The notes beneath the pieces are model-generated. The model worked only from the letters and a program-made list of their open reading frames with translations, was not told the DNA's origin and did not search any database. 64,000 nucleotides of DNA from an uncultured Thiothrix sp. GTDB lineage: Bacteria; Pseudomonadota; Gammaproteobacteria; Thiotrichales; Thiotrichaceae. The DNA is taken from the NCBI RefSeq assembly GCF_937873765.1, contig NZ_CALMZC010000020.1, positions 1 through 64,000 on the forward strand, read 5' to 3'. The position numbers were made by a program, and so were the translations under genes. Below, in pieces: positions 14,140 through 31,673 of this stretch; the stretch's first letter is position 1, and every line of letters begins with the position of its first letter.

Positions 14140-14723
14140 TGGCTGGTTTAAACTTATTACCTTGGCGTGATAAAGAACGCGAACTGAAGAAGAAGCAGTT
14201 CTTTGCTTTATTAGGTGCTTCAGTGGCTCTAGCAGGTTTAATAGTTTTCGCAGGCCATACTTATATGCGTAACGCAGTGAGTTACCAAGAATCACGGAAT
14301 CAACTATTAACCGATGAGATCGCGAATCTAGATAAACAAATTGAGCAAATTAAAAAGCTTGATGCTACTAAGCAAGCTTTACTAGATCGCATGCAAATCA
14401 TTGAAACTTTACAAAGTACTCGTCCGGCGATTGTGCACTTATTTGATGAGATGGCAACAGCCCTGCCTCAAGGTATGTATTTAGAGGCACTCAGGCAAAG
14501 TGATACGGTAGTGCACATCGAGGGTAAGGCCGAATCAAACGCACGCGTTTCTACTTATATGGACAGTTTAGATGCTTCCCAATGGTTGAACTCCTCCAAC
14601 CTAAATATTATTTCTGTAGCCCGTCAAGATGGGCGACCAACGCCACTGCGCGATTTTAAACTCGATGTCCAACAATTATTAAAACAGGACGAGGAGAAGA
14701 AAAATGAATCTGCAGGAGGTTAA
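14139..14723 (+). CDS. pilN: Type IV pilus assembly protein PilN
   Basis: The 194-residue protein has the conserved N-terminal INLLPWR-like motif (AGLNLLPWRDKER) that docks in PilM, one transmembrane helix (about 23-43), a coiled coil (about 50-90) and a periplasmic ferredoxin-like domain. PilN dimerises with PilO to connect the cytoplasmic PilM to the lipoprotein PilP. It overlaps pilO by 20 bases. Confidence 0.95.
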   Translation: MAGLNLLPWRDKERELKKKQFFALLGASVALAGLIVFAGHTYMRNAVSYQESRNQLLTDEIANLDKQIEQIKKLDATKQALLDRMQIIETLQSTRPAIVHLFDEMATALPQGMYLEALRQSDTVVHIEGKAESNARVSTYMDSLDASQWLNSSNLNIISVARQDGRPTPLRDFKLDVQQLLKQDEEKKNESAGG

Positions 14724-15387
14724 CAATCTCGCGGATGATCCGGGTAGTGTGCCTTGGCCTCTCAAGGCTATTGTAGTGGCAGCTTTAATGGCAGTGATTT
14801 TATTCTTGGGTTACAAATTAGTCATTACTGGAAGTATTGAAGAACTAGAAGATTTGCAGCGTAAAGAAACAGAGTTACGAGCTACTTTTGAAACTAAACA
14901 AAAACGTGCTAGCCAGTTAGTTGCCTATGAAAAACAGCTAGAGGAAATGCAGCATTCCTTCGGTACTTTAATGCAGCAATTGCCTAGTGGTACTGAAATT
15001 CCAGCATTGATCTTGGATATTTCTGAGAAGGGGGTTTCTAATGGGTTGGAAATTGAGCTATTCGAGCCTTTAGCAGAGGTTTTGAAAGAGTTCTATGCAG
15101 AAAAGCCGATTAAACTTATCGCTATGGGTACTTATCAGCAGTTGGCTACCTTTGTGAGTGATATTTCTGGACTACCTAGAATTGTAACTATTCATAATAT
15201 TAATCTGTTACCCGAGCTTAATAGAAGTGCTATGCCTCAGCCAAGCAACTCAGCTGAACAAGAAGGGCCACGCCGCTTAAGAATGGATGCATTGATTAAA
15301 ACTTATCGTTATTTAGAGGATAGTGATCTAAAAACTAGCCCGACTGATAAAGCAGCAACCGTTCCAGCATCTGCTCCAAAAAAATAA
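14704..15387 (+). CDS. pilO: Type IV pilus assembly protein PilO
   Basis: The 227-residue partner of PilN has a transmembrane helix at about residues 19-40, a coiled coil (LEDLQRKETELRATFETKQKRASQLVAYEKQLEEM) and a periplasmic ferredoxin-like core (EKPIKLIAMGTYQQLATFVSDISGLPRIVTIHNINL). The C-terminal 30 residues are variable and rich in Ser/Pro/Ala. The start lies inside the end of pilN and is served by AGGACGAGGAG. Confidence 0.95.
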   Translation: MNLQEVNNLADDPGSVPWPLKAIVVAALMAVILFLGYKLVITGSIEELEDLQRKETELRATFETKQKRASQLVAYEKQLEEMQHSFGTLMQQLPSGTEIPALILDISEKGVSNGLEIELFEPLAEVLKEFYAEKPIKLIAMGTYQQLATFVSDISGLPRIVTIHNINLLPELNRSAMPQPSNSAEQEGPRRLRMDALIKTYRYLEDSDLKTSPTDKAATVPASAPKK

Positions 15388-15416
15388 TGAATTAAGCGAG
15401 CCTGCAGAGAATAATC

Positions 15417-15947
15417 ATGATTAAAAATAATTTCAGAATGTCAAGCTTACCGATAGTAGTGAGTGCTTTACTACTAACAGGTTGTGGCGACAATATGTCT
15501 GATCTTCATGTTTATATGAATGAAGTTAAGGCGCGCCCACCAGCACCTATTGAGCCAATTCCAGCGATCAAACCTTATGTACGCTTTATTTACCCCGGCC
15601 ATGATGCAGATCCTTTTGATAGCACAGTTTTAGAAGCGAAGACTGTTGCAGAAATTCCTGAATCTGTGTTGATTGATAAAAATCGAGTACCCGAGTTTTT
15701 AGAAAGTTTCCCACTCGATAGTTTACGCATGGTGGGGACGGTCTTTAAAGAAAAAGAACTCTGGGCACTGATTAAGATTCCTGACGGTGCAGTACATCGA
15801 GTAAAGACAGGTAATTATATTGGTAAAAATCATGGGAAAATTATAAGTATTAAAGACGTAGGGCTTTCATTATCTGAAGTGATAGATAATGGTTTTGGTG
15901 GCTATAAAGAGCATGATAATGAATTGGCTATTTCTACTTTAAATTAG
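15417..15947 (+). CDS. pilP: Type IV pilus lipoprotein PilP
   Basis: The 176-residue protein begins with a lipoprotein signal ending LLLTGCGDN (lipidated Cys about residue 23). The Pro-rich linker RPPAPIEPIPAIKP leads to the HR-type beta-sandwich with ESFPLDSLRMVGTVFKEKELWALIKIPDGAVHRVKTGNYIGKNHGKI, the family core. PilP links PilNO to the secretin PilQ. It sits in the usual place between pilO and pilQ. Confidence 0.95.
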   Translation: MIKNNFRMSSLPIVVSALLLTGCGDNMSDLHVYMNEVKARPPAPIEPIPAIKPYVRFIYPGHDADPFDSTVLEAKTVAEIPESVLIDKNRVPEFLESFPLDSLRMVGTVFKEKELWALIKIPDGAVHRVKTGNYIGKNHGKIISIKDVGLSLSEVIDNGFGGYKEHDNELAISTLN

Positions 15948-22864: not shown

Positions 22865-23710
22865 TCATCCGTAAGTTTCAAGGAGTGACTGGATAAATTC
22901 AGCACTCTCATGCGGGTTAACCTCAGTATTGCGGATCAAACGATCAAAGTGGCGGGTTAAGGCGCGAATTTCCTCTAAAGTATTGATTACTATATACATA
23001 TCGCCTACATAAATCACCGACCGTTGTGAGCCGAAAATGGTTAGAGGCGCTGAGAAGATTTTGCGACCATCATAAAGAAATAAACGATAAGTTGGATAAA
23101 GATCATCTAACAAGCGCTGAATATGCTCTAATTGTTGCCGCCGTAAATGCTTAGGTAGTTTCTCCCAAATCCCCACCCCTTGCGCGAGCATTTTCAGGCG
23201 CTGCAAAGGTAAGCAAACTTCCATTTCAGATTCATCAATTCGGTTATACGCAAGCTGTGAGTTGGTTTCGAGTTTACGCACGGCTAGGGGAACTTGGGTC
23301 GCTTGGCGCTCGTAATCAATCACGGCTTCAATCATTAAAGAGTCAGGCAGATTTGCGGGAACATAGCGGATTTTGTAACCAATCGCATCACGATGCCATT
23401 GGCCTAGCTTGGTATGTTGACCATTAATGACCTGCTCGATTTCCATTGCTGAAGATACTGCAGAGCTTACATGTTCATCCTGTGATAGCCCCAGTAGCCA
23501 ATCAATACTGACACTATAGGTTGAAGCGATACTGCACAAAGTTTCGGCTCGTGGTAGCCGCAACAATTGATCAGACATTAATTGGGCAAGGGCAGAGCGG
23601 TTGACGCCAATGGATTCTGCAAACTGGGCTTTGTTTAAGCCTGAGCGCTGCAGTAAGATCTGTAGACGTTTTTGAAAAGTCTCTCCCATTTCACGCTTCG
23701 CAACTAACAT
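22865..23710 (-). CDS. XRE-family transcriptional regulator with large C-terminal domain
   Basis: The 281-residue protein has an N-terminal Cro/CI helix-turn-helix (ETFQKRLQILLQRSGLNKAQFAESIGVNRSALAQLMS, about 9-46). It continues with a 200-residue domain I do not recognise (…DAIGYKIRYVPANLPDSLMIEAVIDYERQ…LFLYDGRKIFSAPLTIFGSQRSVIYVGDMYIVINT). The second part may sense a ligand or lipid. It ends one base after galU (convergent) and is divergent from a fatty acid desaturase. The 153-base divergent gap carries a GTTATT/AATAAC palindrome, so control of the desaturase is likely but inferred. Confidence 0.75.
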   Translation of the reverse strand: MLVAKREMGETFQKRLQILLQRSGLNKAQFAESIGVNRSALAQLMSDQLLRLPRAETLCSIASTYSVSIDWLLGLSQDEHVSSAVSSAMEIEQVINGQHTKLGQWHRDAIGYKIRYVPANLPDSLMIEAVIDYERQATQVPLAVRKLETNSQLAYNRIDESEMEVCLPLQRLKMLAQGVGIWEKLPKHLRRQQLEHIQRLLDDLYPTYRLFLYDGRKIFSAPLTIFGSQRSVIYVGDMYIVINTLEEIRALTRHFDRLIRNTEVNPHESAEFIQSLLETYG

Positions 23711-23863: not shown

Positions 23864-24748
23864 ATGCGAGCGGAATCTAAAAAAATAGAATACCTAACCT
23901 TAAGCCTATTGTTGGCTTGTTATTTTCTGTGGGGTATGTTGATTATTCTGCATGCCTCACTGCCTGTTTGGTTGTTAGTTCCTTTGTTAACGGTCATACT
24001 GAGTTTTCATGGTTCCTTGCAGCATGAAGTCATTCATTATCATCCCACACCCTCACAACGTTTGAATGAAGCCTTAGCTTCACCACCACTCGCTTTATAC
24101 CTACCCTTTATTATTTACCGCGATACGCATCGTCAACATCACATCTTAGAACATCTAACTTATCCCAGTATTGATCCTGAGTCGTGTTATCTGAATAGAG
24201 AAGATTGGGCAAGGATGCCTGCTTGGCAGTGGCGTTTGTATAGGTGGAACAATACCTTGCTAGGTCGCCTTCTGATTGGCCCTGCACTGGGGGTCAGTTG
24301 TTTTCTAAAAGTAGAATTCAAAAAGCTGCGTGCAGGTGATCAATACACTATTCATGCTTGGTTGGCTTATTTGCCGTGGCTAGCCTTAGTATTAGCTTGG
24401 TTAGTTTATTGGCATTTTCCACTTTGGTTATATGCAATTATCTGTTATTTCTCCATTTCTTTGACCGCGATTCGTATTTTTGCTGAGCATCAAGCCGTCA
24501 ACACACCAACAGAGCGTACTATTGTGATTGAGGCAAATGGCTTTTTGAGCTATGTATTTCTGCAAAATAATCTGCATTCAGTCCATCACAAATATCCAGG
24601 TTTGCCTTGGTATGAGTTGCGCAAAACCTATCAGCAGGAAAAGGAAAGTATTCTGCAAGAGAATGGTCACTATGTATTCAAAAGTTACTTAGAATTATTT
24701 AAGCACTATGCATGGAAGCCTAAAGAAGATGTAGCACATCCTTTATAA
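23864..24748 (+). CDS. Membrane fatty acid desaturase
   Basis: The 294-residue di-iron membrane enzyme has about four to six transmembrane segments. It shows the three His boxes of the membrane desaturase/hydroxylase superfamily: HGSLQHEVIH (about 45-54), DTHRQHHILEH (about 87-97) and HSVHHKYPGLPWYEL (about 231-245). Such enzymes insert double bonds or hydroxyl groups in acyl chains or terpenoids with O2. The substrate is not determinable here. It is divergent from the XRE regulator, and its last 29 bases overlap the convergent PhnD-like gene. Confidence 0.85.
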   Translation: MRAESKKIEYLTLSLLLACYFLWGMLIILHASLPVWLLVPLLTVILSFHGSLQHEVIHYHPTPSQRLNEALASPPLALYLPFIIYRDTHRQHHILEHLTYPSIDPESCYLNREDWARMPAWQWRLYRWNNTLLGRLLIGPALGVSCFLKVEFKKLRAGDQYTIHAWLAYLPWLALVLAWLVYWHFPLWLYAIICYFSISLTAIRIFAEHQAVNTPTERTIVIEANGFLSYVFLQNNLHSVHHKYPGLPWYELRKTYQQEKESILQENGHYVFKSYLELFKHYAWKPKEDVAHPL

Positions 24749-25535
24749 AGCCTGTACTTAGCCTGTAGCTTTGGCGCATGCAGTCGTAATCTTGATCCAG
24801 TGCCGTCACTAAACTGCTTAAGCCTGCAGATTTAATTTCAATCGGAACTTGCGCTAATAAAGTGAGCTGTAATAAGGCTTGCCGAATCATAGTGCTGATT
24901 TCTATACCAACAGTGTTATGTATAACTAAGGGTGGAGTCGGTGCAGGACTTATCTGCGCAATAGACCGAAGTTGACTTAGTATCTCCTGCATTTCCGGTT
25001 TGTTAGATTGCAGCCAATAATCAAATACGGTGCAATCAATCGCTGCTACATCCGCTTCACCTGCAGCAAGCATACGCAGAGAATTAGAGTGCGAGCCACT
25101 CGTGGTCATACTGGCAAACTGTGGCGGATTAGAGAGTTTAGCCCAATGCGCCCATAAAGCATGATGGCCCGAATACGAGTCTGGATCATTAATCACCAGA
25201 CGTTTATTGACTAGTTCCGCAATTGACTGAATTCCGCTGTCCTGATGCACCACTAAGTATGAGAAATACAGTGGCTCGTGATGCCCTGCAAAAATCGGTT
25301 TAGCCAGCACTTGATAACGAACTTGGCGATCTTGTTGCAGGGTATAGAGCAGACCACAGATCCAACCCATTTGAATCTGACCCTTCGCGAGCTTTTCGCT
25401 AGCTTCTAGCCACGGCATGCTTTGATCAAAGCTCACCTGAATGCCCGTTTGCGCGGTTAAATAATCAGCCAATTGTGCGCAAATCGGGTAAGTATTTTCA
25501 GCTAAACAGGAAATCAGGGTGAGCGCTGTTTGCAT
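24720..25535 (-). CDS. PhnD-like periplasmic-binding-fold protein
   Basis: The 271-residue protein is of the PhnD/phosphonate-binding fold (PF12974). It shows LTAQTGIQVSFDQS, a GQIQMGWICGLLYTLQQDRQ motif (the family's GxxxxxxxxxxxY segment), YFSYLVVHQDSGIQSIAELVNKRLVINDPDSYSGHHALWAHW and AAGEADVAAIDCTVFDYW. No signal peptide is visible at the N-terminus (MQTALTLISCLAENTYP), so it may be cytoplasmic. It starts three bases from the end of the dimethylglycine-dehydrogenase-like gene and shares its operon. It may be an orphan sensor or ligand-binding protein for the pathway; the ligand is unknown. Confidence 0.75.
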   Translation of the reverse strand: MQTALTLISCLAENTYPICAQLADYLTAQTGIQVSFDQSMPWLEASEKLAKGQIQMGWICGLLYTLQQDRQVRYQVLAKPIFAGHHEPLYFSYLVVHQDSGIQSIAELVNKRLVINDPDSYSGHHALWAHWAKLSNPPQFASMTTSGSHSNSLRMLAAGEADVAAIDCTVFDYWLQSNKPEMQEILSQLRSIAQISPAPTPPLVIHNTVGIEISTMIRQALLQLTLLAQVPIEIKSAGLSSLVTALDQDYDCMRQSYRLSTGFIKDVLHLL

Positions 25536-25538
25536 TGT

Positions 25539-27956
25539 TTAAGCTCGTAAATAACTTAAGTGTGGATCGAATAAAGCCTCAGTTATCACGGTGGCAGGGC
25601 GCTTTTTACCTAATAGCTCAATCTCTACTTGTGTACCAGCTTGAATCAAATCTGGTGGTAAGAAGCCTATCGCCACTGATTTTTGCGCCCAATGTGCATA
25701 ACCACCCGACGTCACCGCACCCACAATTTTGCCATGATGCCAAATCGGTTCATCCGCATGGACATCAGCATCAGTATCCTCAAGGATGAAGGTGGTAAGT
25801 TTACGTTTTACACCTTGAGCCTTCTCTGCCAAGGCTGCAGCTTTGCCAATAAAATCGGCAGGTTTGTTATAGGCGACAAAGCGACTTAAGCCCGTTTCGA
25901 GTGGGGTATAATCCGGTTTAAATTCCCGTAGCCATGAGCCAAAACTTTTTTCTAAGCGCAAGCTCATCATTGCACGCATCCCGAAGGGTTTAAGATTGAA
26001 CTCTTGGCCTGCTTCAGCGAGGGCTGCATATAAAGCGAGCTGTTGGCTGTTATCCACATAGATTTCATAGCCTTGATCGCCGGTATAACTCACTCGTTGT
26101 ACAATAGCATCCGTTAAGCCAACTTCACCTTGGCGTACACTCATAAACGGGAAAGCTGTGGTACTGAGGTCAATATTGGTGACTTTGCTTAAAAGCGCGC
26201 GCGCTTTAGGCCCTGCGATTTGGAAGCCGATCCGTTGCAGGGAAATATTGCGCAGCTCCACACCGGATTCGAGTAAGTGCTGTTCAAACCAACGCTGATG
26301 ATAAGCTTGTGCGCCATAGGAGGCCGTGAGTTGGAACTGGTTTTCCGCTAAGCAGCTAATCGTAAAATCGCCAATAATCCGCCCTTTGGGACTCAACAGC
26401 GGCGACAAACTCAAGCGCCCGATTTCCGGAATACGCCCCGCCATTATCCCATCTAACCATTCACGTGCTTTGCTGCCAGTGACAAGAAATTTACTGAAAT
26501 TATGAATTTCGTTTATGCCCACATGGTTGCGTACATGACGGCATTCTTCGCCGATGGTATCGAAAGCATTAGAGCGCACGAAGGTTGGGGTTTCATAGCG
26601 TGGTTCGGCTTCACGAGCGAAATAGTTCACATGCTCTAAGCCATGGCCTTGGCCGAAGACTGCACCTTGTTCTTTCCACAGGCTATACATCGGCGTGGTA
26701 TGCAAAGGACGTCCAGCAGGGCGCTCTTCATTCGGGAAGGAAATCGAGAAGCGTTTTTGGTAGTTTTCAGTGACTTTTTTGCGGGTATAAGCACGAGTGG
26801 CGAATTTGCCAAAGCGCGCCACATCCATCGCAAACACATCACGTGAAGGCTCACCTTCAACCATCCATTCCGCTAGTGTTAAGCCGACACCTCCTCCTTG
26901 GCTGAAACCCGCCATCACTGCACAAGCTGACCAGAAATTGCGTAACCCACCCACAGGCCCCACCAAGGGATTGCCATCGGGAGCGAAAGTAAAGGGGCCA
27001 TTGATAATGGTTTTAATCCCTGCCGTACCCAAAACAGGATAACGGTTACATGCAAATTCTAACGATTCACTAATCCGATCTAATTGATTAGGGAGTAATT
27101 CATGGCCGAAATCCCAAGAGGTCACATCGACTGCCCAAGGATCGCAACGTTGCTCATAGAAGCCAATGACTAAGCCACGTCCCTCCTGACGTAGATAACT
27201 TTCGCCCGCTGGATCCATCACGTGTGGCAATTCGGAGCCATGGTTATATACTTCGGGAATTTCATCGGTGACTAGATATTGATGCTCCATCGGATGCAGA
27301 GGTAGCTCAATCCCGACCATGCGCCCGACTTCACGTGCCCATAAACCTGCTGCATTCACCACATGCTCAGCAATCAAGTTGCCCTTATTCGTGACCACTT
27401 CCCAACTGCCATCAGGGCGTGGATTTAAGGCTTCAACTTTGGTATGCAGATAAATCTCTGCCCCTCGTTTTTTCGCCGCAATCGCATAAGCATGCGTTGT
27501 GCCATAAGGGTCAAGGTGACCGTCTAGTGGATCGTATAAGCCCCCAATGACACCATCGGTATTGGTAATGGGCGAAAGTTGACGAATTTCTTCAGGGCCA
27601 ATAATCTCAGTGTGTAAGCCCATGTATTGATGCTTAGCGCGCTCCGCTTTCAAGTAGTCCATACGCTCAGGCGTGGTCGCTAGGGTAATCCCACCCACAT
27701 GATGCAATCCGCAAGCTTGCCCAGAAATCTGCTCCAGTTCGCGATACAAATTAATCGTATAGCCTTGCAAAGCGGCCATATTGGTATCGGCATTTAGGGT
27801 ATGAAAACCGCCCGCCGCGTGCCAAGTCGAGCCAGAGGTTAATTCGGAGCGCTCGATTAGAGCAAGATCTGTCCAGCCTAATTTAGTCAGATGGTATAAA
27901 ACACTCGCGCCCACAACACCACCGCCAATCACAGCGACTCTAACATGTGATTTCAT
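25539..27956 (-). CDS. Dimethylglycine/sarcosine dehydrogenase-like FAD-GcvT protein
   Basis: The 805-residue two-domain enzyme carries in its N-terminal half the DAO Rossmann motif VAVIGGGVVGASVLYHLTKLGW (7-28). It also has SGSTWHAAGGFHT, whose His binds FAD covalently in dimethylglycine and sarcosine dehydrogenases. The C-terminal half (about 420-805) is a GcvT/aminomethyltransferase domain that passes the released C1 unit to tetrahydrofolate (NHVGINEIHNFSKFLVTG…, FGMRAMMSLRLEKSFGSW, YKPADFIGKAAAL-like segment). The likely reaction is oxidative N-demethylation of a secondary or tertiary N-methylamine. It sits between an MttB-family gene and a PhnD-like gene in one operon. The precise substrate is open. 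Confidence 0.88.
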   Translation of the reverse strand: MKSHVRVAVIGGGVVGASVLYHLTKLGWTDLALIERSELTSGSTWHAAGGFHTLNADTNMAALQGYTINLYRELEQISGQACGLHHVGGITLATTPERMDYLKAERAKHQYMGLHTEIIGPEEIRQLSPITNTDGVIGGLYDPLDGHLDPYGTTHAYAIAAKKRGAEIYLHTKVEALNPRPDGSWEVVTNKGNLIAEHVVNAAGLWAREVGRMVGIELPLHPMEHQYLVTDEIPEVYNHGSELPHVMDPAGESYLRQEGRGLVIGFYEQRCDPWAVDVTSWDFGHELLPNQLDRISESLEFACNRYPVLGTAGIKTIINGPFTFAPDGNPLVGPVGGLRNFWSACAVMAGFSQGGGVGLTLAEWMVEGEPSRDVFAMDVARFGKFATRAYTRKKVTENYQKRFSISFPNEERPAGRPLHTTPMYSLWKEQGAVFGQGHGLEHVNYFAREAEPRYETPTFVRSNAFDTIGEECRHVRNHVGINEIHNFSKFLVTGSKAREWLDGIMAGRIPEIGRLSLSPLLSPKGRIIGDFTISCLAENQFQLTASYGAQAYHQRWFEQHLLESGVELRNISLQRIGFQIAGPKARALLSKVTNIDLSTTAFPFMSVRQGEVGLTDAIVQRVSYTGDQGYEIYVDNSQQLALYAALAEAGQEFNLKPFGMRAMMSLRLEKSFGSWLREFKPDYTPLETGLSRFVAYNKPADFIGKAAALAEKAQGVKRKLTTFILEDTDADVHADEPIWHHGKIVGAVTSGGYAHWAQKSVAIGFLPPDLIQAGTQVEIELLGKKRPATVITEALFDPHLSYLRA

Positions 27957-27968
27957 AAAGCATCCTTC

Positions 27969-29543
27969 TTAAAAGTCTGTTGCCACGCCACCTTCACTTT
28001 TACGCCGTGCGACAAAAGCGTCTAACTCTTCGCGAATCGCAGCGTCTAAGGGTGGTGGTTCATAATGTTGCAGAATCTGTTTATACAACTGGTGTGCATG
28101 CTCGTAAGTGGTCGGGCTGCCTGCTTCTTGCCAAGTCTCGAAGTTACGCCAATCGGACACTAGCGGTGCATAGAAGGCCTCTTTGTAACGTGCCATCGTG
28201 TGAGCTGTACCAAAATAGTGACCGCCGGGGCCAACATCTTTGACGGCTTCAAGTGCCAGTGTCGCCTCATCCACCGTGACACCTTGTAGATAGACAGCCA
28301 TCATTTGCAGTAAATCAGCATCAATGATGAGCTTTTCAAACGAGGCACATAGACCACCCTCTAACCAACCCGCGCCATGCATTAAGAAATTCGCACCACC
28401 CATAATCGCGCCCCACAAAGCCATGGTGGATTCATAAGCGGCTTGGGCATCCACAGTATTCGAAGCACAGACATTGGAGGAGCGGAAGGGAATTTGATAA
28501 TGGCGAGCTAATTGACCGCTGATTTGCGCGGCCAACACATATTCGGGTGTACCAAAGGCTGGAGCACCGGATTTCATATCGACATTCGAGGTGAAGCCCC
28601 CATAAACCGCTGGCGCACCACGGCGTACCATTTGTGTGAAAGCAATACCTGCTAAGGCTTCCGCATTTTGCTGAGCAATCGCGCCTGCTAAGGTGACGGG
28701 AGCCATCGCGCCTGCCAAGGTAAACGGCGTGAGCATAACGACTTGATTCCGCGCCGACATTTCCATAATGCCTTGCAGCATGGGTTGGTCAAGGCGCAGG
28801 GGCGAGCTGGAATTGATAATGGTAAATAAACTGGGTTCTTGCTCGAGGTGCTCATGACTAATCCCACGGGCAATCCGGGCAATTTCAATCCCGTCACGAT
28901 TCCGCTGCCGTCCTAGCGAATACGCATGAAATACTTTATCGGTTAAGGTCACACAATCAGCTAAACAATCCAAATGGCGCACCGAAGCATGAATATCCAC
29001 TGGCTCTACCGGATAGCCGCCTGTGAATTGCAGAATGTTAAAACTCTGCATCAAGCGTAGAAAGTTTTGATAATCGGCATGATTACCCGCACGGCGACCC
29101 CCATCCATGCTACTGGCATTCGGTGCACTGGCGACCGTGCCGAAACTGGTAAAGTTTTTACCGATTTGTAAATGATGAGCTGGATTACGGGCATGTAGCG
29201 TAAAACTTTCAGGTACGCTGGCAAGGTAATGCATGATCAGATGGCGATCAAAATGAACCCGATGACTACCTTCGGTGACTTTTGCACCGCATTGCTTCAT
29301 CAAAGCGCGTGCATCCTCATCTAAAATATCCATGCCAACTTCTTCGAGAATACGCATGGAGGCATGATGAATCTGCTCGATTTGTTCTTCGTAGATAATT
29401 TCGATGGGTTTGTAAGGATTTTTGAGGATTTGCCACGGTAACTGCTGGAGTTGCGAGCTAGTGCTGGTTTCTGGTCGCTTGCTGCGGCGTGGGCGAGCTT
29501 TAACAGAAGCAGTTTCGGCAGAAACGGCGGATTCTTGGCTCAT
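27969..29543 (-). CDS. Trimethylamine/glycine betaine methyltransferase family protein (MttB superfamily)
   Basis: The 524-residue MttB-family (COG5598) TIM-barrel protein shows HASMRILEEVGMDILDEDARALMKQCGAKV, LHARNPAHHLQIGKNFTSFGTVASAPNASSMDGGRRAG and ASNTVDAQAAYESTMALWGAIMGGANFLMHGAGWLEGGLCASFEKLIID. There is no in-frame amber codon, so it is the non-pyrrolysine type, like the glycine betaine methyltransferase MtgB rather than true MttB. A basic tail (KARPRRSKRP) precedes the fold. I start at the ATG at 29543 with GGAGAG before it; a GTG nine bases upstream is also open. No corrinoid (MttC-type) protein is nearby, so its methyl acceptor is unclear. Confidence 0.88.
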   Translation of the reverse strand: MSQESAVSAETASVKARPRRSKRPETSTSSQLQQLPWQILKNPYKPIEIIYEEQIEQIHHASMRILEEVGMDILDEDARALMKQCGAKVTEGSHRVHFDRHLIMHYLASVPESFTLHARNPAHHLQIGKNFTSFGTVASAPNASSMDGGRRAGNHADYQNFLRLMQSFNILQFTGGYPVEPVDIHASVRHLDCLADCVTLTDKVFHAYSLGRQRNRDGIEIARIARGISHEHLEQEPSLFTIINSSSPLRLDQPMLQGIMEMSARNQVVMLTPFTLAGAMAPVTLAGAIAQQNAEALAGIAFTQMVRRGAPAVYGGFTSNVDMKSGAPAFGTPEYVLAAQISGQLARHYQIPFRSSNVCASNTVDAQAAYESTMALWGAIMGGANFLMHGAGWLEGGLCASFEKLIIDADLLQMMAVYLQGVTVDEATLALEAVKDVGPGGHYFGTAHTMARYKEAFYAPLVSDWRNFETWQEAGSPTTYEHAHQLYKQILQHYEPPPLDAAIREELDAFVARRKSEGGVATDF

Positions 29544-29606
29544 AAAATACACTCTCCACTAGAAAAGGTTGAGCGCCAATCAGAGTGAGATGGTGACGGT
29601 GCTGCT

Positions 29607-30227
29607 TCACTCCGAGTTGTTCGGCAGTGTCTTTGCTAAATACTGCTGGAAACGGGTTTCATCGATTTTTTCGCCGGTGAATACCCAAAAATACTCCCGA
29701 TAAAGCCTTAAGCGCTGCGCTAAATCTTCGCCTAGGTCTAAGGCGTAATAGCCCACTTGGGTAAAATAAAAAACACGGGCGCGAATCATCGCTTCTGCGT
29801 GCCCACAGCCATGCTCTGCAAACATTTTTTGGAAAGCGCGCAACCGTTTTTGATCTTCTTCATGTACCAATTGACCGATTTTGGAGTCATGTGCTCCCCA
29901 ATTGCGCATCGCAGTGTCTAAAGCTGGATCGAAGAGGTTTTCATTAGTCCAACAATCAGCTATCGCTAACATGCGATCCGTAAAATCATCACTACTTGCA
30001 CAGGCAGCTAATAATTCACCGGTGTTTTTTTGCTGCCAGACAGCTATTAAAGCCTGCAATAACTCGTCGCGATTTTTAAAGTGCCAATAAAAGCTACCCC
30101 GCGTGATTCCCAGATTCTCGGCTAGAGTTAGGACGCGTACCCGCTCCACGCCTTCTTGAGTGAATACGGTGTACGCAGCCCTAATCCAGTCTTGACGTTC
30201 AAGGTTAGCGCGGTTTTCATCGCTCAT
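29607..30227 (-). CDS. TetR/AcrR-family regulator
   Basis: The 206-residue repressor has an N-terminal TetR helix-turn-helix (DWIRAAYTVFTQEGVERVRVLTLAENLGITRGSFYWHFKNRDELLQALI, about 10-60). Its helical ligand domain has WGAHDSKIGQLV. I use the ATG at 30227 preceded by AGAGAGAAAGGC; an upstream ATG at 30260 lies within the inverted repeat and is unlikely. It heads the mttB-type operon, 54 bases before it, and is divergent from the FAD oxidoreductase. The promoter between them is overlapped by an 8-bp inverted repeat, so it probably controls both. Confidence 0.85.
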   Translation of the reverse strand: MSDENRANLERQDWIRAAYTVFTQEGVERVRVLTLAENLGITRGSFYWHFKNRDELLQALIAVWQQKNTGELLAACASSDDFTDRMLAIADCWTNENLFDPALDTAMRNWGAHDSKIGQLVHEEDQKRLRAFQKMFAEHGCGHAEAMIRARVFYFTQVGYYALDLGEDLAQRLRLYREYFWVFTGEKIDETRFQQYLAKTLPNNSE

Positions 30228-30254
30228 GCCTTTCTCTCTACTCTCTCTATTGCT

Positions 30255-30299
30255 TAACATACACTATTGTATTGACAACTCCAAACACTAATGTATGTT
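30255..30299. promoter_or_regulatory. TetR operator over the FAD-oxidoreductase promoter
   Basis: AACATACA (30255-30262) and TGTATGTT (30292-30299) are a perfect 8-bp inverted repeat. They bracket a sigma-70 promoter, TTGACA (30272-30277) and TATGTT (30294-30299) with 16-base spacing, reading toward 30369. A second small inverted repeat (ATACA-CTAT-TGTAT) lies at the left side. The arrangement fits repression by the adjacent TetR protein. Confidence 0.6.
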
Positions 30300-30368: not shown

Positions 30369-31673
30369 ATGAGCAAACAATATGACGCGATTATTATCGG
30401 TGCTGGCATCATAGGCGCAGCGATTGGTTTAGAGCTCGCGCGTCGCGGCTGGAAAACCCTGAATGTGGACAAATTAGGGGCGGCTGGTTTTGGTTCCACG
30501 TCCAATTCTAGTGCTATCATTCGTACCTACTATTCAACCCTAGATGGTACGGCCATGGCTTATGAAGGTTACCATTATTGGCGGGATTGGGCGAAATATA
30601 TAGGTGTAGAGGACGAATCCGGCCTTGCCCAATTTCATGAATGTGGCTGTTTAGTGATGAAAGTAGAACACAATGGCTATTTAGAAAAAGCCATGCAACT
30701 TTCTAAGGACTTAGGGATTCCTTATCGTGAAATTAGCCCGGAGGAATTGCAGGCGTTTATTCCGGGCTATGATGCGCGTTTGTATTACCCACCAAAACGC
30801 CCCGACCAAGAGGGTTTTGCTGAGCCGACCACTGGCACTCTGCGTGGGGCAGTGCATTGGCCGCAAGGTGGTTATGTGAACGATCCGCAATTGGCAGCGC
30901 ATAATTTGCAACGGGCGACTGAAGCAGCCGGTGGAGCTTTCCGTTTCAATGCTGAAGTAGTGGATATTCGCCAAGCGAATGGGCGTGTTTGTGGTATTAC
31001 CTTAAAAAATGGCGAACAGATTGATGCACCCGTGGTTGTGAATGTAGGTGGTCCACACTCATCGAAAATTAATGCTTTAGTCGGTTTGGCAGATAAGATG
31101 AAAATGAGCACTCGTGCGCTTCGCCAAGAGATCCCGCATGTACCGCCACCGCTGCATTATGATTATGTGAAACTAGGTAAGGTAACTTCAGATAGTGATG
31201 TCGCTGTTTATAGTCGCCCTGCGAGTGGTGGGATGATGCTGTTGGGTAGTGAAGACCCAGAGTGTGATCCAAAAGAGTGGGTTGACCCTGATACCATGAA
31301 TCGTGATCTAAGTGAACATGCGGTCACGCATATTATGCGGATGGCGCAGCGCTATCCGGAGTTAGGTATTCCTAACCAAGTACGCGGCACGGTAGAGGCT
31401 TATGATGTCACTGAGGATTGGATTCCCATTTACGATAAAACTGATTTGCCCGGCTATTATATTGCGATTGGCACGAGCGGTAATCAGTTCAAGAATACCG
31501 CTGTGGCGGGCAAGATGATGGCAACGCTAATTACTGCCTGTGAAGCAGGGCAAGATCACGACCAAGACCCTGTGCAGTATACGATGGAATATCTGGGGCG
31601 TACTTTGAGTATTGGCTTCTATTCCCGCAATCGGGCGATTAATCAGGAGAGTAGTTTTTCGGTGTTGGGGTAG
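30369..31673 (+). CDS. FAD-dependent oxidoreductase (DAO/SoxB type)
   Basis: The 434-residue D-amino-acid-oxidase-fold protein shows YDAIIIGAGIIGAAIGLELARRGW (4-27), SNSSAIIRTYYS and, near the end, GYYIAIGTSGNQFKNTAVAGKMM. It resembles sarcosine oxidase beta-type and glycine-betaine-cluster oxidoreductases. It would oxidise an N-methyl or primary amine in the same pathway as the divergent MttB/DMGDH operon. I chose the ATG at 30369, after AAGGAG. The last 64 bases (31610-31673) are repeated at 37401-37464, where the same C-terminal peptide is encoded; see the repeat entries. Confidence 0.88.
   Translation: MSKQYDAIIIGAGIIGAAIGLELARRGWKTLNVDKLGAAGFGSTSNSSAIIRTYYSTLDGTAMAYEGYHYWRDWAKYIGVEDESGLAQFHECGCLVMKVEHNGYLEKAMQLSKDLGIPYREISPEELQAFIPGYDARLYYPPKRPDQEGFAEPTTGTLRGAVHWPQGGYVNDPQLAAHNLQRATEAAGGAFRFNAEVVDIRQANGRVCGITLKNGEQIDAPVVVNVGGPHSSKINALVGLADKMKMSTRALRQEIPHVPPPLHYDYVKLGKVTSDSDVAVYSRPASGGMMLLGSEDPECDPKEWVDPDTMNRDLSEHAVTHIMRMAQRYPELGIPNQVRGTVEAYDVTEDWIPIYDKTDLPGYYIAIGTSGNQFKNTAVAGKMMATLITACEAGQDHDQDPVQYTMEYLGRTLSIGFYSRNRAINQESSFSVLG
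31610..31673 (+). repeat. Direct repeat, inner copy: 3' end of the FAD oxidoreductase gene
   Basis: This copy is the final 64 bases of the FAD oxidoreductase gene, encoding IGFYSRNRAINQESSFSVLG and the TAG stop. It matches 37401-37464 at 60 of 64 positions. It contains TCCCG-CAAT-CGGG, a short inverted repeat like a recombinase core. It bounds the left side of a 5.8-kb insert. Confidence 0.9.

Follow-up and report, generated by a model that had tools for sequence, protein, structure and literature searches.

An MttB–dimethylglycine dehydrogenase-like operon of a filamentous sulfur bacterium probably works with a corrinoid protein encoded elsewhere in the genome

We analysed a 64,000-nucleotide stretch of DNA (the window) from an uncultured Thiothrix sp. 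whose genome is close to Thiolinea (assembly GCF_937873765.1, contig NZ_CALMZC010000020.1) and find an operon that probably provides the demethylating arm of an aerobic betaine pathway dependent on cobalamin, in which an MttB-family methyltransferase would act on glycine betaine or a near relative with the corrinoid protein MtgC provided in trans, followed by a dimethylglycine dehydrogenase (DMGDH)-like enzyme. No new methyl acceptor is needed, because the same genome encodes a B12 carrier protein, along with its helpers, outside the window. The reading is built on observed gene content, linkage, phyletic co-occurrence, residue conservation and operator conservation. The 2025 description of the aerobic cobalamin-dependent betaine pathway drew mainly on marine bacteria (PMC12478193), and the present operon would extend that pathway to the Thiolinea group of filamentous sulfur bacteria.

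Results

A compact operon with a divergent oxidase

The operon consists of four co-directional minus-strand genes, encoding in order a TetR regulator, MttB, a DMGDH-like FAD-GcvT protein and a PhnD-like protein, with intergenic gaps of 63 bp (TetR-MttB), 12 bp (MttB-DMGDH) and 3 bp (DMGDH-PhnD-like). The first-pass annotation had described a tight operon of these genes, and their positions, Pfam matches and common direction bear it out. A neighbour that it did not mention is a divergent FAD oxidase gene, which faces the TetR gene across an operator region common to both. The features are as follows.

22865–23710, minus strand: XRE-type regulator (HTH_3), possible module accessory
23864–24748, plus strand: PF00487 membrane desaturase-like protein (E 8e-29), possible accessory
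24720–25535, minus strand: leaderless PhnD-like binding protein with no transporter partner (PF12974, E 2e-35)
25539–27956, minus strand: dimethylglycine-dehydrogenase-like FAD and GcvT protein, 805 aa (DAO, FAO_M, GCV_T, GCV_T_C)
27969–29543, minus strand: MttB-family methyltransferase (non-pyrrolysine) of branch II (PF06253, E 6e-203, residues 22–522)
29607–30260, minus strand: TetR-family regulator (PF00440, TetR_N), probable start ATG about 30227
30258–30296, minus strand: two operator-like palindromes, 24 bp apart, between the TetR and divergent FAD oxidase genes
30369–31673, plus strand: divergent sarcosine-oxidase-like FAD oxidase (DAO; PF01266, E 3e-47), open reading frame (ORF) listed from TTG 30327

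The start listed for MttB, a GTG at 29552, lies three codons upstream of the ATG; the frame runs for 527 aa without a stop and has no in-frame amber codon, and hence no pyrrolysine. The TetR start was placed at about 30227 because the ORF in locus L075 begins at MSDENR.

The top PDB match of the FAD-GcvT protein is mitochondrial DMGDH (4PAB, E 1e-197). Like the mitochondrial enzyme (4PAB, 5L46), it shows the full-length domain order DAO, FAO_M, GCV_T and GCV_T_C and, in the alignment with 4PAB, keeps the covalent-FAD histidine motif WHAAG and the folate-site acid (Asp here, Glu in 4PAB). It differs from that enzyme in having two further homologues in this genome and a putative substrate; because the genome encodes several DMGDH-like proteins, the one in the operon need not act on dimethylglycine. 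The second DMGDH-like gene, on contig C5 (locus L155, 7582–11088), adjoins a gene for a GbdR-like regulator.

The two palindromes between the TetR and oxidase genes, ATACAWTAGTGTWTG, are the only copies in the genome when up to one mismatch is allowed, and the operator block is kept in Thiothrix eikelboomii and Thiolinea disciformis (loci L075 and L076), where the flanks have diverged. Such conserved, unique palindromes fit a dedicated local TetR switch, which would serve both the operon and the divergent oxidase.

A corrinoid protein and its helpers on another contig

The first-pass annotation found no corrinoid protein, activator or corrinoid methyltransferase nearby, and this holds: 0 of the 94 window ORFs tested match the genome's own MtgC, MtgD, RamA or DUF1638 protein, and a search for B12-binding domains on the window's contig found none. 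A check of the rest of the genome for an MtgC homologue, which that annotation had suggested, was successful. Contig C65 carries a complete cluster, mtgB-mtgC-DUF1638-metV-metF-mtgD-ramA, in which the PF06253 gene comes first and the Pfam matches are B12-binding with B12-binding_2, DUF1638, DUF5981, MTHFR, Pterin_bind and RACo. Its MtgC carries the B12 motif DxHxxG. The genome has one set of MtgC, MtgD, RamA, DUF1638 and MetF/MetV, and it is this one; MtgC, MtgD, RamA and DUF1638 within one genome are the marks of the MtgBCD pathway. The TetR operator was not found at the C65 cluster; we therefore rejected co-regulation of that cluster by the same TetR, and any co-regulation of mtgC with the operon is hypothetical.

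Further genes of betaine metabolism lie on other contigs: SoxB, SoxA and SoxG on contig C15 (SoxB exceeds its NCBIfam cut-off), an OpuAC-type betaine/choline binding protein with a permease on contig C12, and a BHMT-type protein (MtgE in PMC12478193) on contig C16. The genome also encodes a MetH of 1284 aa. We also considered a GbcA-type monooxygenase as the real first step and rejected it, as GbcA was not found in the genome and the sole Ring_hydroxyl_A protein is AndAc-like and scores 115 bits against the GbcA cut-off of 670.

The window MttB belongs to a branch lacking Tyr94

The genome contains three PF06253 genes, in the window and on contigs C65 and C38, each with a different partner. 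The C38 paralogue (locus L010, 6508–10104) lies next to an OYE/TMADH-type oxidoreductase of 678 aa, a pairing that would suit the breakdown of proline betaine. In a tree of 68 rows, built from a quick search without bootstrap and including one biochemically characterised MtgB, the window MttB falls in branch II (56 rows, SH-aLRT 100). Branch I (SH-aLRT 95) holds the S. meliloti protein 4YYC together with the C65 and C38 paralogues, and Desulfitobacterium (D.) hafniense MtgB lies outside both, its exclusion from branch II having an SH-aLRT of 99–100. The first-pass annotation had named two findings that would jointly speak against its proposal, a corrinoid gene coexpressed elsewhere in the genome and a place for MttB inside a characterised MtgB clade; a corrinoid gene is present elsewhere, whereas the tree gives no such placement.

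The window MttB matches PF06253 over its full length, and its AlphaFold model (mean pLDDT 72) has the TIM-barrel fold of MttB/MtgB, with 4YYC and 9YCE as best matches (TM about 0.8). A docking study predicts that Y94, N199, R309 and H345 of MtgB bind glycine betaine and that Y94 contacts the betaine methyls (PMC6855144). With D. hafniense MtgB (2QNE, 9YCE) the window protein shares family, fold and the N199, R309 and H345 positions, but it is 39% identical, carries Ala in place of Y94 and Gly in place of F353, and stands outside the MtgB clade. It likewise shares family and fold with its top structural match 4YYC, from the trimethylamine methyltransferase family, but is 41% identical to it, whereas 4YYC groups with the mtgC-linked C65 paralogue (70% identical). 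Methanogen MttB, of the MttB-MttC trimethylamine system (7XCL, 7XCN), is related by superfamily and fold but differs in its pyrrolysine and is 28% identical. Position 94 is Ala, Ser or Gly throughout branch II, which keeps the other three predicted betaine-binding residues, and mostly Tyr in branch I. The missing Y94 of the predicted pocket would count against glycine betaine as substrate, as would the possibility that the MttB of the C65 cluster is itself the glycine betaine enzyme.

Gene neighbourhoods point to betaine and to MtgC

Neighbours were called by homology and not by ORF length, because many long opposite-strand ORFs in GC-rich loci are artefacts. The pairing of MttB with DMGDH is found again across Gamma-, Beta- and Alphaproteobacteria, and the arrangement is therefore not due to chance. 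MttB is followed by DMGDH, SoxB and SoxA in six betaproteobacterial loci (L120, L134, L137, L138, L148 and L152) and by DMGDH alone in three from Alphaproteobacteria (L077, L101 and L140). In L164 choline-sulfatase and choline dehydrogenase genes, both above curated cut-offs, come after MttB, and in L077 a GbdR-like regulator, with a score below the curated cut-off, lies upstream. These neighbours support a betaine context for the branch. Many rhizobial relatives (66–68% identity) have MttB without any of them.

Members of the branch are also found beside corrinoid genes. L172 and L173 each have a branch II MttB directly 5′ of mtgC-DUF1638-metV-metF-mtgD-ramA, in L079 MttB of this branch shares a locus with MtgC, RamA, SoxA and SoxB, and in L086 RamA and MtgD are near a window-type MttB. 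L081 combines a window-type MttB and DMGDH with a C65-type MttB and MtgC. In L171 (around 8253 and 14678–15907) a branch II MttB shares its locus with hutI (imidazolonepropionase) as well as genes for a PhnD-like protein and an XRE regulator, which could hint at histidine betaine as substrate.

It is possible, though we think it doubtful, that MttB passes methyl groups to MtgC in trans from some other betaine, for example a longer or bulkier carboxylated quaternary amine, with the DMGDH-like protein and the FAD oxidase removing methyls two and three. The small residues that branch II has instead of the Y94 of MtgB, 4YYC and the C65 and C38 proteins, alongside retained residues predicted to bind the carboxylate, favour such a substrate; so do the three MttB paralogues with their separate partners, the hutI gene in L171, and a dedicated, unique TetR operator suggestive of a separate inducer. 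Against it stand the neighbours in other bacteria, DMGDH, SoxBA, choline sulfatase, choline dehydrogenase and a GbdR-like regulator. A literature search for a homarine-type operon gave nothing useful.

The PhnD-like protein and possible accessory genes

The nearest solved relatives of the PhnD-like protein are ArrX and AioX, which are stand-alone binding proteins. The first-pass annotation was right to call it leaderless: there is no upstream in-frame start, the protein starts at the first predicted strand, and no signal peptide was found. In three Thiolinea/Thiothrix genomes it lacks a leader and begins at the stop codon of the DMGDH gene or immediately behind it. The operon has no permease or ATPase gene adjoining it, and we rejected a role as a periplasmic phosphonate-binding or transporter part on these grounds. 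Close homologues (E up to 1e-30) occur in only 2 of 369 genomes of the class, both from the genus of the window's organism, and more distant PF12974 proteins lie beside or near branch II MttBs in L169, L171 and L140. The AlphaFold model (pLDDT 50) was too poor for use. Our guess is an intracellular ligand sensor or carrier.

The desaturase-like gene overlaps the PhnD-like gene at its 3′ end. In L169, from another family of the class, the MttB, XRE, FAD oxidase and DMGDH genes stand in a row, the oxidase (53% identical to that of the window) between MttB and DMGDH (72%), with a divergent leaderless PF12974 gene beside MttB. Directly behind MttB in L169 is a full-length homologue of the XRE regulator (43% identical), L161 and L171 contain others, and homologues of the PF00487 protein are near MttB in L161, L140 and L177. 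Both may belong to the module, since their homologues are near branch II MttBs in other families. We regard it as rather unlikely that branch II MttB, the DMGDH-like protein, the FAD oxidase, the leaderless PhnD-like protein, the XRE regulator and the desaturase-like protein make up a module that recurs and fully demethylates the nitrogen of some betaine other than glycine betaine, in which the PhnD-like protein would be an intracellular ligand sensor or carrier.

MttB and MtgC occur in the same genomes

Among 369 genomes of the class, 21 show a strong MttB match (E up to 1e-60). Exactly those 21 also have a close C65-type MtgC (identity 66% or higher, E up to 3e-90; a threshold chosen after a gap in the scores was seen), against 0 of the 348 others, where the best match has 48% identity. 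These 21 genomes belong to 12 families (Fisher p 1e-34 by genome, uncorrected for relatedness), and five families (f1, f18, f143, f145 and f154) include some genomes with both proteins and others with neither. MtgC-like matches were found in 25 of 26 further genomes with a close MttB; identity is 76% or more in 24 of them and 45% in one. The genome that has no such match is a metagenome bin.

The suggestion in the first-pass annotation that the corrinoid partner lies elsewhere gains support from this 21/21 co-occurrence, together with the mtgC set on C65 and the same-branch MttBs within mtgC/ramA clusters of other bacteria; nothing that we found supports its alternative, that this branch hands methyl groups to another acceptor. 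That MttB uses a cobalamin protein other than MtgC, such as the cobalamin domain of the 1284-aa MetH, is highly improbable, as MetH-type matches occur in hundreds of genomes of the class without any MttB and close MtgC tracks MttB exactly. Least credible is direct transfer to a non-corrinoid acceptor, for example tetrahydrofolate on the GcvT domain of the operon partner: only the lack of a local corrinoid gene and the tight pairing with a folate-binding domain speak for it, and we reject it on the perfect co-occurrence and the branch II members inside mtgC/ramA clusters, to which the retained fold and predicted pocket residues of cobalamin-dependent MtgB add.

Discussion

The pathway that we favour, in which glycine betaine or a closely related compound is demethylated with MtgC in trans, can be set out as a sequence of steps whose methyl acceptor, substrate, order and regulation we infer. 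The window MttB, in the role of MtgB, would take one methyl group off its substrate, a carboxylated quaternary amine that is most likely glycine betaine, and pass this methyl to cob(I)alamin on the MtgC encoded on C65. MtgD would move the methyl from MtgC to tetrahydrofolate, MetF/MetV would then oxidise it, and RamA with the DUF1638 protein would re-reduce the cobalamin. The tertiary amine left over, dimethylglycine, would be demethylated by the DMGDH-like protein, its GcvT domain yielding methylene-tetrahydrofolate. The resulting secondary amine, sarcosine, would be handled either by SoxBAG (C15) or by the divergent FAD oxidase, which would be under the control of the local TetR together with the operon.

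In Ruegeria, mtgC and mtgD mutants lose growth on betaine, and in Ruegeria pomeroyi mtgB, mtgC and mtgD are not in one cluster (PMC12478193). Our genome resembles this MtgBCD(E) system in its MtgC, MtgD, MetF, RamA and DUF1638 genes, its several PF06253 paralogues, DMGDH and SoxBDAG as downstream enzymes, and the dispersal of its mtg genes. It differs in that the window MttB shares an operon with DMGDH and a leaderless PhnD-like protein, has a local TetR and belongs to a branch without Y94. MetH is kept here, whereas it is absent from most, though not all, of the MtgBCD genomes described in that study. Dispersed mtg genes in Ruegeria are thus already known, as is the proposal that additional PF06253 paralogues act on other methylated compounds (PMC12478193). 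What the present analysis adds is the group of organisms, the exact matching of MttB and MtgC across genomes, a branch that lacks Y94 and accessory genes that recur.

That MttB and MtgC occur so exactly together offers a straightforward test at the genome level, and mttB genes without a corrinoid neighbour can be read with their partner in trans. The branch lacking Y94 offers a concrete target for finding what else such enzymes demethylate. Two further features of the neighbourhoods were seen: M24 Xaa-Pro peptidase/creatinase-type proteins recur beside MttB genes of Alphaproteobacteria (L178, L179, L081 and L170), and on S. meliloti pSymA an isochorismatase-family gene follows.
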